This document shows positions 25,134 through 28,657 of a DNA stretch of 33,879 nucleotides, one piece after another (the stretch's first letter is position 1; every line of letters begins with the position of its first letter). A program made the translations under genes and the position numbers. The DNA is taken from the NCBI RefSeq assembly GCF_001929375.1, contig NZ_MSGO01000003.1, positions 1 to 33,879 of the forward strand, written 5' to 3'. Under the pieces are notes generated by a model, which was not told the DNA's origin, ran no database searches, and saw only the letters and a list, made by a program, of their open reading frames with translations. This DNA is from Actinomyces oris (GTDB lineage Bacteria; Actinomycetota; Actinomycetes; Actinomycetales; Actinomycetaceae).

Positions 25134-25316
25134 TCACTCCGTGCCGAGCTTGCCGTCGACGGCGTCGCGGGCGGCGTCGATCTTGTCGTCGAACTTGCCG
25201 CCGGTCGCCTTCTTGGCAGCACCGGCTGCGGCGTCCAGCGCCTTGTCGCTGATCGCCTCGGCCTTGTCGGAGCTGAGAGCATCACCGGCCTTCTTCGCCA
25301 GGTCATCAAGTCCCAT
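25134..25316 (-). CDS. MT0933/Rv0909-like antitoxin family protein
   Basis: 60 residues from ATG 25316, with AAGGAGA at a normal distance; longer in-frame readings lack a ribosome site. The product is a charged, Ala/Lys/Asp-rich helical protein: MGLDDLAKKAGDALSSDKAE near the start, then an AAAGAAKKATGGKFDDKID stretch and RDAVDGKLGTE at the end. The KATGGKFxDKIDxxxDxVD pattern matches the MT0933 antitoxin family of Actinobacteria. In mycobacteria the partner is an SRPBCC-type toxin; none is next to it here. It may instead act as a stress or CsbD-like protein. Confidence 0.8.
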   Translation of the reverse strand: MGLDDLAKKAGDALSSDKAEAISDKALDAAAGAAKKATGGKFDDKIDAARDAVDGKLGTE

Positions 25317-25430
25317 CTGTGTCTCCTTCCGTCGGGTGGCCAGACGTCGGATGACGACGGCCTCGCCTGAATAGTGCCAGGTTTGCGCACCTGCGTCATC
25401 TGAGGGCGGCTCGGCCCCTGGGCTGCGCCC

Positions 25431-25566
25431 GGGGACAAGTGACGCGCTCGGGGACAAGTGACGCGGCCGGGGACTTTCTCTCCCCGCCGGGGACCGGAAT
25501 TCCGTCCCCGAACGCGCAGGACGCCCCGTAGGGAAGCTTGCGCACCCCTACGCGCAGAACGTCCCC
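25431..25566. repeat. Left GGGGAC/GTCCCC periodic dyad array
   Basis: GGGGAC starts at 25431, 25450, 25469 and 25489 (steps 19, 19, 20). The complement GTCCCC starts at 25504 and 25561, with degenerate copies near 25523 and 25543. The units mirror each other about a GGAATTCC palindrome at 25496-25503: each forward unit has its partner at the same distance from the centre. Spacers are 13-14 nt and mostly do not pair, so this looks like an array of protein sites rather than one hairpin. It abuts the 3' end of the MmcQ gene. Confidence 0.8.
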
Positions 25567-25600
25567 GGCCGTTCTGCTGGAGCGCCAGCGGTGCCGGGCC

Positions 25601-26065
25601 TCACCACTGCCAGGTGGGGCGGGCGGGGGAGCCCGCGGCGTCGGCCAGGAGGACGGCCTCACGCACACGGCGGGTCAGGAGAGACAGGACGAGCCGGTAG
25701 GAGTCCTCCACCATGGCGGCGGCCTCGTCCGCCCGGTAGCCGGGGCTGGTGAGGTCGATGCTCACCCAGTGCCGCTTGGACTGGTGGAAGCCCGGTTCCA
25801 CCCACTCGAAGGCGGCCCGTACGGCGACGACGTCCTCGGGATCGAGCTTGACATTGGCCAGGAGGCGGCCGTCGGTGTGGGGGATGAGCAGCAGGAAGAG
25901 GCGGGGGCCCACCGAGGCGACGGGGATGTCCCACTCGGGCTTGTGCCCCGCCCAGGCCCCGGGCAGCGTGGCCGCCTTGGCCAGGAGCTCGTCTCGGCGG
26001 GCGGCCACGTTGACGCACCCGGAGGGATCGTTGGGGTGAGGGCTGCGGCGGCATGGTGCGGTCAT
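25601..26065 (-). CDS. MmcQ/YjbR family protein
   Basis: 154 residues. The family core is evident: LPGAWAGHKPEWDIPVA (about 34-50), a strand GPRLFLLLIPHTDG (about 53-66), LANVKLDPEDVVAVRAAFEW (about 69-88), and PGFHQSKRHWVSIDL (91-105), followed by a helical DEAAAMVEDSYRLVLSLLTR. These CyaY-like fold proteins are annotated as DNA-binding, but their role is unproven. The start at 26065 lacks a ribosome site; a GTG about 19 codons later (before AARRDELLAKA) is an alternative. The gene is flanked on both sides by periodic GGGGAC arrays, which may be functionally linked or coincidental. Confidence 0.85.
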   Translation of the reverse strand: MTAPCRRSPHPNDPSGCVNVAARRDELLAKAATLPGAWAGHKPEWDIPVASVGPRLFLLLIPHTDGRLLANVKLDPEDVVAVRAAFEWVEPGFHQSKRHWVSIDLTSPGYRADEAAAMVEDSYRLVLSLLTRRVREAVLLADAAGSPARPTWQW

Positions 26066-26095
26066 CGACGTCGAGCCTACGGTCTCCCCGCGGCG

Positions 26096-26252
26096 GGGGA
26101 CATTGCGTGCGGCCGGGTGCAGATCACTCCGGGCGGGGACGTCCTGCGCGGAGGGTGACAGGATTCCGGTCCCCGACGGCGTCGAACGCCCCCGGCTGAA
26201 CGGAAAAGTCCCCGACCGTGCGACGTGTCCCCGCCCGGAGTGGTACGTCCCC
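26096..26252. repeat. Right GGGGAC/GTCCCC periodic dyad array
   Basis: GGGGAC starts at 26096 and 26135 with a degenerate GGGTGC between at 26115; the complement starts at 26169, 26208, 26227 and 26247 with a degenerate GCCCCC at 26188. Steps are 19, 20 and 19, 20, 19, 20. The three forward units mirror the first three reverse units about 26154. GGATTCCGGTCCCCGA (26161-26176) resembles the GGAATTCCGTCCCCGA centre of the left array. It lies between the start of the MmcQ gene and the end of the next lipoprotein gene, so it could affect the promoter of the former. Confidence 0.8.
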
Positions 26253-26260
26253 GGCTGTGC

Positions 26261-26974
26261 TCAGTGGATCGTCTCGAGGACGGTCGTCCTCAGCTCCTCG
26301 ATGGTCTGACCGCTGGAGCCGGCGTTGATGGCGATGATGGCGTACTTCCCCTTCTCCTTGGTGGGAGCCGCGATCAGGGAGCCGTTGACCGTCTGGCCGC
26401 CGATGTTCGCGGTGTAGTTGAGCACGGCCGCTTCACCATTGGCGGTCTGCTCGGTGGAGTAGCCGGTCGGGGTCCCTCCGGGGATCGAGGAGAGGGCAGG
26501 GCTCAGCTCAGCCTCGGTCGGGGGCTTGGTGGCGGGGACGGTGGTCTTGGAGACGTTGGCGTTGCCGAGGTACGGATCGGTGCCGGTGTCGGGGGCCTTG
26601 TAGTAGACGTCGGATGTGGCGTCCAAAGGGGTGGTCTGCCAGCCCTCGGGCACCGCGAAGGTGATGCCGACGGTGGGGGCGGTGATCTCCTGGTAGCCCG
26701 CGGGCGTCGCCTTGGGGAGGTCGCTCTTCGTGGCGCTGGTGCTGGCGGAGGCCTTGTCGTCGCCCTTGCTGGTCTTGTCAGCCTCGGCGTCCTTCTTACT
26801 GTCCTTGGTCTCACTGTCCTTGTCGTCGCCCTCGTCCGATGCTGACGAGCTGTCGGAGGCGGCTGAGCTGGAGGAGCCGGAGCCCTCAGTGCTCTGAGAG
26901 CAGGCGGTCAGAACAGGGGCTGCTGCTAGTGCGAGAGCGGCGAACAGGGCTGCGGTGTTGCGTGTGGTTCTCAT
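26261..26974 (-). CDS. Lipoprotein of a three-gene paralogous group (third in order of transcription)
   Basis: 237 residues. Signal peptide with lipobox LTAC (Cys25), then a long Ser/Asp/Lys/Glu linker to about residue 90. The folded part begins PAGYQEITAPTVGITFAVPE and continues with W, then DPYLGNANVSKTTVP, GGTPTGYSTEQTANGEAAV and a final TIEELRTTVLETIH. The pattern of a strand, GW, and a late two-strand plus helix ending resembles LpqN/LpqT-like actinobacterial lipoproteins. Shares GGTPTGYSTxQ with the gene at 27833. TTGGAG precedes the ATG. Function unknown; surface-exposed. Confidence 0.82.
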   Translation of the reverse strand: MRTTRNTAALFAALALAAAPVLTACSQSTEGSGSSSSAASDSSSASDEGDDKDSETKDSKKDAEADKTSKGDDKASASTSATKSDLPKATPAGYQEITAPTVGITFAVPEGWQTTPLDATSDVYYKAPDTGTDPYLGNANVSKTTVPATKPPTEAELSPALSSIPGGTPTGYSTEQTANGEAAVLNYTANIGGQTVNGSLIAAPTKEKGKYAIIAINAGSSGQTIEELRTTVLETIH

Positions 26975-27138
26975 GATGCTCCAAGATGAACGAATGACCT
27001 ACGTCATAAGAAGATCATGATCTTCTGGGAATTTTCTTGATGCGTTGGTTTCGCTCACGGTTCATCGAGCGCGGGGCTGGGGCAACGCCCATTCCGGGAC
27101 TCTGGCGGCGGCGAGCAGTCGCTTTGGAGGGGAGCCCC

Positions 27139-27810
27139 TCAGTGCGCCGTCGCGATGATGACCTCGGTGATCCTCTTCGCGTCGTCCTGGGAAACGGAGA
27201 AGACGAACACGCGGGCGTAGTCCCCCGATGAGGTGGGCAGGTAGAGGACGGACCCGTAATCCGCCTTGCTGCGCGGGGAGTGGGTGAAGGTCCCCCGGAT
27301 CCCCTGCCCGTTGCGGGTCTGGATCGCCTCGACCGCATCGATCGACACCTGGTCCTGCTTCGCGGCGTCGACGAAGACGTCCCCGACGTTCATCTTCGCG
27401 TTCTCCTGGCGCTCATTGTCGATGTAGACCCGCGGTGAGAACGGCTGCCCCGGGGCGGAGCCGGCGGTCTTGAACACCTCGTAGGAGTCGAGGTTCGCCT
27501 TGAGTGCCCTGTTGTCATCCGTGCCCAGGTCCTCGGCCAGGGGGATGAGCTCGGTGGCGGAGTAGCTGGAGATGTCCCTCCAGTCGGCGGGTAGCGCGAT
27601 GGTGATGTTGGCCGAGGTGGAGGTGACCTCCGCGTAGCCCGGGGGGATGGCTGAGGGGGTGGGGCCGGTCGGAGGGGCTGCCGGTGCCTCAGGGGCCGAC
27701 GACGCGGCGGAGCCCCCGGAGGCGCGGCACCCACCCAGCGCGGCCGGACTGACAAGTGCCAGGGCGGCCATGGCGGCGCTGAGGAGTCGAAGCGGTGATC
27801 TCGTCGCCAT
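27139..27810 (-). CDS. Lipoprotein of the paralogous group (second)
   Basis: 223 residues. Signal peptide ends LGGC (Cys28). A short Ala/Pro/Ser linker leads to IPPGYAEVTSTSANITIALP followed by ADWRDIS, the same opening as its neighbours; then NLDSYEVFK, FSPRVYIDNERQENAKMNVG and a C-terminal FVFSVSQDDAKRITEVIIAT. It has a strong GGAGG ribosome site. It differs most from the other two and lacks their GGTPTGYST block. Spacing of 22 bp to the upstream paralogue's stop suggests co-transcription; 164 bp separate it from the downstream one. Confidence 0.82.
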   Translation of the reverse strand: MATRSPLRLLSAAMAALALVSPAALGGCRASGGSAASSAPEAPAAPPTGPTPSAIPPGYAEVTSTSANITIALPADWRDISSYSATELIPLAEDLGTDDNRALKANLDSYEVFKTAGSAPGQPFSPRVYIDNERQENAKMNVGDVFVDAAKQDQVSIDAVEAIQTRNGQGIRGTFTHSPRSKADYGSVLYLPTSSGDYARVFVFSVSQDDAKRITEVIIATAH

Positions 27811-27832
27811 CGCGGTCCTCCGGGGGAGTCCC

Positions 27833-28495
27833 TCAGCGGGCCGTCGTGAGGATGGTGGACACGATGGTGTCGACCTCCTCGGCGCTGCCGGCCGTCACGG
27901 CGATGCGCACGTAGGTGCCCGACGACGTCGGAACGGCGACGACCGCGCCGGCCGTCTGGACCCCCTGGACCTGCGCGGTCGAGGTGTCGACGGCGGCCTG
28001 CCCGTGGGTGGACTGCTTGGTGGAGTAGCCCGTCGGCGTGCCTCCCTGCCGGGTGATGGTCTCATCCAGGCTCTCCTGGGACGGGGGCGTCGAGGAGGCT
28101 TCGGCCTCCTTGGCGACTGCGACGCTGTTGAAGGAGATTCCGGCGCTCTGCGAGAACCGGCCGTAGAAGGCGTCGGTGCTGCTCAGGCGCTGGGTGAGGG
28201 CGGAGGGATCCTGCCCCTGAGCCCGGGCGAGCAGCGCCTTCTGGGCCTCGGGAAGGGCATTGAGGTCCTGCCAGTCCTCAGGGATCGCGAAGGTGAGGCC
28301 GGATGTCGGTGCGGTGATCACCTGGTGGCCCGCCGGGATGGAGGCGCTCGCGCCGCCCCCGCCCGCCGACGTCGCCGCGGCCGCGGGGGCCGAGCCGGTC
28401 GCTGCGGCCGAGCCCGCCGACGAGGGGCTGCCCTGTGAGCAGCCCGCCAGGATGAGGATGGTGGCCAGAGCCAGGGTGGCGCGCGTGGTTCTCAT
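27833..28495 (-). CDS. Lipoprotein of the paralogous group (first)
   Basis: 220 residues from ATG 28495 (CGGAGA upstream); an in-frame extension to 28618 has no ribosome site. Starts MRTTRATLALATILILAGC with lipobox LAGC (Cys19), then an Ala/Ser/Gly linker. The domain opens IPAGHQVITAPTSGLTFAIP then EDWQDLNALPEAQ and has GGTPTGYSTKQSTHGQAAV, matching the third paralogue closely, including the shared MRTTR start. It ends VDTIVSTILTTAR. Divergent from clpB, sharing the 28496-28739 region. Confidence 0.84.
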   Translation of the reverse strand: MRTTRATLALATILILAGCSQGSPSSAGSAAATGSAPAAAATSAGGGGASASIPAGHQVITAPTSGLTFAIPEDWQDLNALPEAQKALLARAQGQDPSALTQRLSSTDAFYGRFSQSAGISFNSVAVAKEAEASSTPPSQESLDETITRQGGTPTGYSTKQSTHGQAAVDTSTAQVQGVQTAGAVVAVPTSSGTYVRIAVTAGSAEEVDTIVSTILTTAR

Positions 28496-28657
28496 GATGT
28501 CTCCGGAGTCATGGCGGGATTGTGACGTGACCATAGCGGCGGCGTCGAACAGTGGTGTGTCACGTGGTCGACTGGCATGTCGCGGTGGGTGCGGTGAGCG
28601 GCGGGATTCCGGCAACAACGGCCTCAGGAGTAGCCCACGTCACTGCCGGTCTCGGAA

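Follow-up and report, generated by a model that had tools for sequence, protein, structure and literature searches.

What are two arrays of evenly spaced hexamers doing on either side of a YjbR-family gene, and what might bind them? In the window, by which we mean the whole stretch of 33,879 nucleotides from Actinomyces oris that was analysed, GGGGAC or its reverse complement GTCCCC recurs at steps of 19 or 20 nt across both intergenic regions that enclose this gene. An earlier note on this DNA had taken the hexamers for phased contacts of a protein and had proposed the flanked gene as the possible source of that protein.

The arrays in the window and the intact element

The features of the locus are collected in Table 1. 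Each array had been credited with eight hexamers. Six in each are exact (from 41 exact hexamers across the window) and the remainder are degenerate. The centre of array 1 had been placed correctly at 25499, while that of array 2 lies at 26164 and not at 26154. The phasing itself is real: exact hexamers spaced by the steps of the family form a chain of up to six in the window, and 300 windows simulated with a first-order Markov model yielded chains of two at the most. A loose two-hexamer pattern with two mismatches was found 14 times in the window with 15.9 expected, which is not above chance, so the signal resides in the hexamer chains.

Table 1. Coordinates of the arrays, their cores and the neighbouring genes in the window
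Feature	Coordinates	Strand	Details
Array 1	25431..25566	.	Hexamers 25431, 25450, 25469, 25489 (all exact GGGGAC) / 25504 (exact GTCCCC), ~25523 (degenerate, GCCCCG), ~25543 (degenerate, CACCCC), 25561 (exact GTCCCC)
Array 1 core palindrome	25489..25509	.	GGGGAC-N9-GTCCCC
Array 2	26096..26252	+	Eight-hexamer standard geometry: 26096 (exact), 26115 (degenerate, GGGTGC), 26135 (exact), 26154 (degenerate, GGTGAC) / 26169 (exact), 26188 (degenerate, GCCCCC), 26208 (exact), 26227 (exact); extra ninth hexamer 26247 (exact)
Array 2 core	26154..26174	+	One mismatch (GGTGAC)
Apparent recombination junction	26089..26218	.	Comparison with G009 arrays
YjbR-family protein, between arrays	25601..26065	-	154 aa; Pfam PF04237, E 7e-15
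Left neighbour, MT0933-like antitoxin family protein	25134..25316	-	60 aa; PF14013; ATG at 25316; frame scanned 25134-25346
Right neighbour, putative secreted lipoprotein	26261..26974	-	237 aa; lipoprotein call by eye

The form of the intact element was read from G006, the complete genome (one contig, 3.04 Mb) whose arrays are the best preserved. In 50 gap-free aligned G006 copies the element is 137 bp long and has eight hexamers, four facing four, which start at -58, -39, -19, 0, +15, +34, +54 and +73 (steps of 19, 20, 19, 15, 19, 20 and 19). It is built from a 21-bp core with three units of 19/20 bp on either side. The consensus core reads GGGGAC aggattcct GTCCCC, and the units are A (GGGGAC attccgcgcggcc), B (GGGTGC attttcttccggcc) and C1 (GGGGAC atcctgcgcgtcc); oriented by its inner units, the element runs A, B, C1, core, and then C2, B and A reversed. 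Hexamers are better conserved than spacers among these 50 copies, and the geometry is nearly fixed: the two hexamers one step away from the core sit at their exact offsets in 48 and 49 of the 50 G006 copies and in all 44 of those in G009.

Judged by sequence, the window arrays are imperfect copies of this 137-bp eight-hexamer element. Array 2 carries a right-hand core-adjacent spacer of the C2 type, and array 1 seems, from comparison with the G009 stretch L231, to have lost the left inner 19-bp unit and to have one outer unit doubled. The array set of the window's own genome is partly decayed, more so than that of G006: all six outer hexamers keep their exact offsets in 2 of 19 copies here, compared with 31 of 50 for G006 and 25 of 44 for G009. 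In the stretches covered, the mean number of exact hexamers out of eight is 7.0 in both G006 and G009, 5.5 in G003, 5.2 in G000 and 5.1 in G026.

Genes were called with a home-made codon-score script rather than a trained gene finder. A family search with the right neighbour (26261..26974) gave nothing above its curated cut-off. This gene is the first of three adjacent putative lipoproteins on the minus strand (26261-28618) with 26-36% mutual identity over the aligned stretches (E 5e-6 to 2e-23), which are perhaps tandem paralogues.

Distribution in the genus and along the chromosome

A BLAST search with array 1 found 12 places in its own genome, array 1 itself and array 2 included, and the pattern GGGGAC-N13/14-GGGGAC occurs 23 times in the whole genome, where its reversed control occurs 3 times. 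A survey for the core GGGGACNGGNNTNCNGTCCCC, in which one mismatch was allowed, covered 37 genomes of the same genus and 22 of other genera. Nine of the 37 have between 5 and 51 forward matches: G009 (51), G006 (48), G003 (17), G000 (16), G026 (15), G022 (14), G001 and G010 (7 each) and G025 (5). The remaining 28 have 0-3, and none of the 22 genomes outside the genus exceeds one match per strand. Reversed-pattern controls gave 0-2 matches in all genomes, and 0 or 1 per strand in the nine positive ones. A class-wide BLAST of 394 genomes, of low sensitivity (2 own copies recovered), matched the window's own genome alone.

The scan of the genome and its relatives that the earlier note had proposed thus bears out a dispersed repeat family. 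The arrays are also intergenic, as all 49 classified arrays of G006 lie outside confident genes: 34 are situated between codirectional genes, 9 between convergent and 6 between divergent ones, and array-free intergenic stretches above 100 bp in the same DNA divide into 46, 14 and 21. Array orientation is unrelated both to the direction in which codirectional neighbours are transcribed (12/10 and 5/5) and to that of the fork (22/24). A transcription- or fork-polar motif was rejected on this ground, and a structural site fits better than an RNA or a polar motif.

Similar sequences were seen elsewhere. A 415-kb sequence of Actinomyces oris WVU627 that is labelled a plasmid (NZ_CP116225.1, L151) has seven array places, and a 10-kb stretch of it is ~95% identical over most of its length to a chromosomal stretch of G006 (L256); it is perhaps a piece of chromosome. 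Tandem GGGGAC repeats were found in at least 119 stretches from other phyla, with motif and period fixed by the search pattern. Repeats of 19-20 bp occur in L057, L077, L134, L136, L045 and L115, some of them hairpin-like, and palindromic forms in L051, L049, L056, L108 and L110. A phage origin was rejected: the core is present in 13 viral contigs, of which 10 have no arm hexamer and the other 3 carry arm-like hexamers on a single side. No published account of a phased GGGGAC repeat was found in a search whose reach mostly stopped short of the subscription literature, and the main text of the RepRanger paper (PMC12306157) mentions neither Actinomyces nor GGGGAC.

The copies are not spread evenly over the chromosome. 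In G006, the 45 exact TT-centred cores, a set smaller than that of all copies, lie at 341-345 kb (4), 731-1437 kb (40) and 1813 kb (1), dnaA being at 1186 kb. Of the 45 cores 36 (10.4 expected), and of the 23 array clusters 19 (5.3 expected), are no more than 350 kb away from dnaA. G026 has its dnaA at base 94 and 14 of its 20 places within the same distance (p 8.5e-6), or 14 of 17 when presumed chance places are dropped (p 3e-7); its place at 466542 is the orthologue of a G006 array, and its pair near 865 kb matches a distant G006 cluster. Eight of the nine places listed for G010 are at 2.38-2.76 Mb around dnaA (2.60 Mb) and one is at 0.34 Mb, some of the nine being maybe due to chance. In G006 and G026, then, there is enrichment on the origin side with scarcity near the terminus, as for sites of the Noc, SlmA and RacA type. 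The distribution is not centred on dnaA itself, with a single one of the 45 G006 cores in the interval of 1.03-1.23 Mb that holds dnaA (1.19 Mb) and four lying 0.85 Mb away from it. Like parS, the site of ParB, the arrays are palindromic and belong to the origin region. Unlike them, canonical parS (one mismatch) forms, in each of four genomes, a separate group of 6-8 copies no more than ~15 kb from dnaA, and the parS sequence TGTTTCACGTGAAACA is absent from the arrays, by which parS identity is rejected.

Hexamer conservation and the competing readings

To gauge the conservation of the hexamers, orthologous arrays were compared between G006 and G009 (30 of 31 pairs; a G006 duplicate mapping to an already paired G009 array was left out). 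Substitutions amount to 4.8% in hexamers, 13.6% in spacers and 10.0% in the inner nine bases of the core, against 10.3% in non-coding and 6.3% in coding flanks. Outside CpG, G/C positions changed in 1.9% of cases in hexamers versus 7.6% in non-coding flanks, whereas A/T positions are no better kept in hexamers (12.2%) than in flanks (10.3%). On this comparison the hexamers are conserved within the family. In many of the pairs the spacers diverge beyond the flanks, which suggests exchange between copies, and such exchange would keep the hexamers alike without selection on each copy. As proof of selection copy by copy, hexamer conservation is weakened by these signs. In the subsets of 6, 8 and 11 pairs whose spacers have changed little, there is no difference between hexamers and spacers (p 1, 0.52 and 0.17), but one between hexamers and non-coding flanks remains (p 0.002 to 2e-5).

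Among the readings considered, we think that a docking element for a protein is the most likely and that a decaying mobile repeat is its main rival. The latter would be a non-autonomous palindromic repeat of the MITE or ERIC kind, which after a local spread in an ancestor is now in decay, with the hexamers as former contacts of a transposase. We regard this as unlikely, though a serious contender. ERIC, REP/BIME and MITEs are dispersed intergenic imperfect palindromes, ERIC being similar in length, and the arrays are likewise dispersed, intergenic and patchy between strains. Moreover, copies less than 3 kb apart are more alike (0.82) than those more than 300 kb apart (0.70), and, at two of the five orthologous sites that were aligned, apparent fragments of arrays remain in the "empty" sites of G026 or G000. 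Clean empty sites were rejected on account of these remnants, and the patchiness is accordingly taken partly as loss. What the arrays have beyond the known repeats is the phased build of eight hexamers, arms that are not kept complementary, and an origin bias that a mobile repeat would not lead one to expect. The Y1_Tnp/RAYT family (PF01797) was found in none of the 37 genomes of the genus at E 0.001, in a search that detected it in 5 of 14 control genomes, and REP/RAYT identity was rejected on this ground. Thirty reading frames (29 between arrays and one from an orthologous stretch) gave no hit to any family of transposases or recombinases at E 0.01, with 10 of the 30 matching nothing; neither a target duplication nor a clean boundary was seen in the five site alignments. 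The pattern of change also tells against former transposase contacts, in that the core hexamers change least and the outermost right hexamer most. At one G006 array position, G000 has a different hairpin repeat (GAGCCGGGCATTTCTCGCGTA ... TACGCGAGAAATGCCCGGCTC; G000:C28, L200 ~1046-1092).

Several genes that lie between arrays are present in some strains and absent from others. Five loci show a single array in some genomes and array-gene-array in others: the HTH and 257-aa genes are absent there from G000 and G026, an OsmC gene from G000, and a DUF817 gene, a 5.6-kb segment and a 4.1-kb segment from G006. The first of these is the locus of the window. Here G009 and G006 have the order array, YjbR gene, array, HTH gene with a further gene, array; G003 lacks the first two arrays, and G000 and G026, without the HTH gene and the one that follows, have one array versus two in G006/G009. 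The window itself lacks the HTH and 257-aa genes that lie between the G009 arrays L231:6009 and L231:7378. Its array 2 matches the former on its left side and through the array, and the latter through the array and on its right side, so that its flanks, one from each G009 array, appear to be the product expected from recombination between those two. Related segments, each bounded by arrays, were also seen in G006:C1 at 933-939 kb (L246) and G003:C19 at 23-28 kb (L209); the L209 segments in G003 share ~70-80% identity, and the L246/L209 cluster has a Fic-family gene in one interval.

Such differences raise the question of whether the arrays are recombination sites of the gene-cassette type, at which a recombinase or RecA joins direct arrays and thereby moves single genes in and out. 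In integrons, single cassette genes lie between repeated imperfect palindromes (attC). The two states of the five loci fit this, as do the shared orientation of neighbouring arrays (18 of 20) and the small accessory nature of some of the cargo (Fic, PIN, OsmC, GNAT, glyoxalase and a Phd-like antitoxin whose match is below its curated cut-off). We nevertheless consider it improbable. Many arrays are solitary or, unlike attC sites, flank core-like genes such as an MgsA-type gene, which we take to be core. In the 5.6-kb case the flank past the array is alike as well and the junction is therefore not confined to the array, and some clusters are tandem duplications with their flanks included. Ordinary homologous recombination would suffice. 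A common mobile cargo was likewise rejected, the interiors matching mainly their own orthologues or tandem paralogues.

Far less probable still is a hairpin of RNA or DNA, acting as a terminator, an mRNA stabiliser or a cruciform. It is true that the consensus is self-complementary (59 of 68 pairs) and that each of four copies, taken singly, folds better than shuffled controls do (z -3.3 to -5.8). However, in 46 G006 copies (4 of the 50, with damaged arms, were dropped) arms that belong together pair worse than arms combined from different copies, and this held in every one of 500 shuffles; for spacers, pairing is 0.517 within and 0.578 between copies. C1 is opposite C2 in 42 of the 46 copies, and the two B hexamers (GGGGAC, GGGTGC) differ in type in 35 of 50, agree in 9 and are tied in 6. 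When the 42 copies with unequal C units are oriented, the deficit persists in the hexamers, the core and the B spacers; it is weak in the A spacers, where 18 of 400 shuffles gave as low a value, and is gone in the C spacers. Copies that do not keep their arms complementary favour protein contacts and disfavour a hairpin, or a simple palindrome, and the compensatory arm pairing of an ERIC-like hairpin repeat was not found in these shuffles. Adding to this the indifference of array orientation to transcription and an Rfam search of the window that gave no match to a known RNA family at gathering score, a conserved hairpin is unlikely.

That the arrays are an operator of the YjbR gene they flank, with YjbR as the binder, is barely credible: the gene does lie between two arrays in the window, G006 and G009, but most arrays are situated elsewhere, only 1 of the 23 array clusters in G006 adjoins YjbR, and in G025, which has the gene, no array was found in the 3.5 kb that surround it, so that the supposed tie to MmcQ/YjbR falls away.

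A putative docking element on the origin side

The reading of the hexamers as phased protein contacts gains indirect support from the near-fixed geometry, the lower rate of change of hexamers than of spacers and flanks, and the arm pairing, which is not favoured. We tentatively propose, at somewhat less than even confidence, that the arrays are a lineage-specific, multi-site chromosomal docking element for a putative DNA-binding protein on the origin side. The predicted protein would occupy the hexamers side by side and form a compact complex, and some tens of such complexes across the origin-side chromosome would serve chromosome organisation or division control, in the way of Noc, SlmA and RacA sites. 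Copies in direct orientation may in addition, by side effect or in a second role, act as junctions between which DNA is present or absent by strain. The function would be a dispensable one, since the family was found hardly or not at all in 28 of the 37 genomes of the genus and is less intact in G000, G003 and G026.

The sites of Noc (Bacillus, Staphylococcus) and SlmA (E. coli) are single short palindromes. The arrays resemble them in having tens of sites on the origin side and few near the terminus, a likeness of site layout alone; they differ in being phased sets of eight hexamers, restricted to a lineage and partly decayed. For Staphylococcus aureus Noc, 41 loci are reported, all except one of which are in the origin-proximal half (PMC5540599). 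The arrays are also comparable to the RacA-binding ram sites of B. subtilis in being dense near the origin. The ram sites are inverted repeats, and we know of no phased arrays among them. The ram sites are described as dense near the origin and as binding an oligomerising protein, and, in a departure from the arrays, as also spread over the rest of the chromosome (PMC6593407).

Taken as a whole, a larger picture can be drawn, which we consider unlikely in its entirety: an undescribed system of chromosome organisation or division control, in which a predicted protein coats the origin-side arrays of eight hexamers independently of ParB-parS. This system would be gone, or on its way out, in sister species, and its sites would double as breakpoints for the turnover of single genes.

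To our knowledge, sequence-specific systems by which a chromosome's origin side is marked have been described in few cases, and in Actinobacteria there is little beyond ParB-parS. With about 50 alike and nearly strictly phased arrays in one genome, the binder should be findable by pull-down. The less intact sets of sister genomes would allow one to follow, inside a single genus, how such a system is gained or lost, and the array-bounded differences suggest a route by which single genes may come and go.
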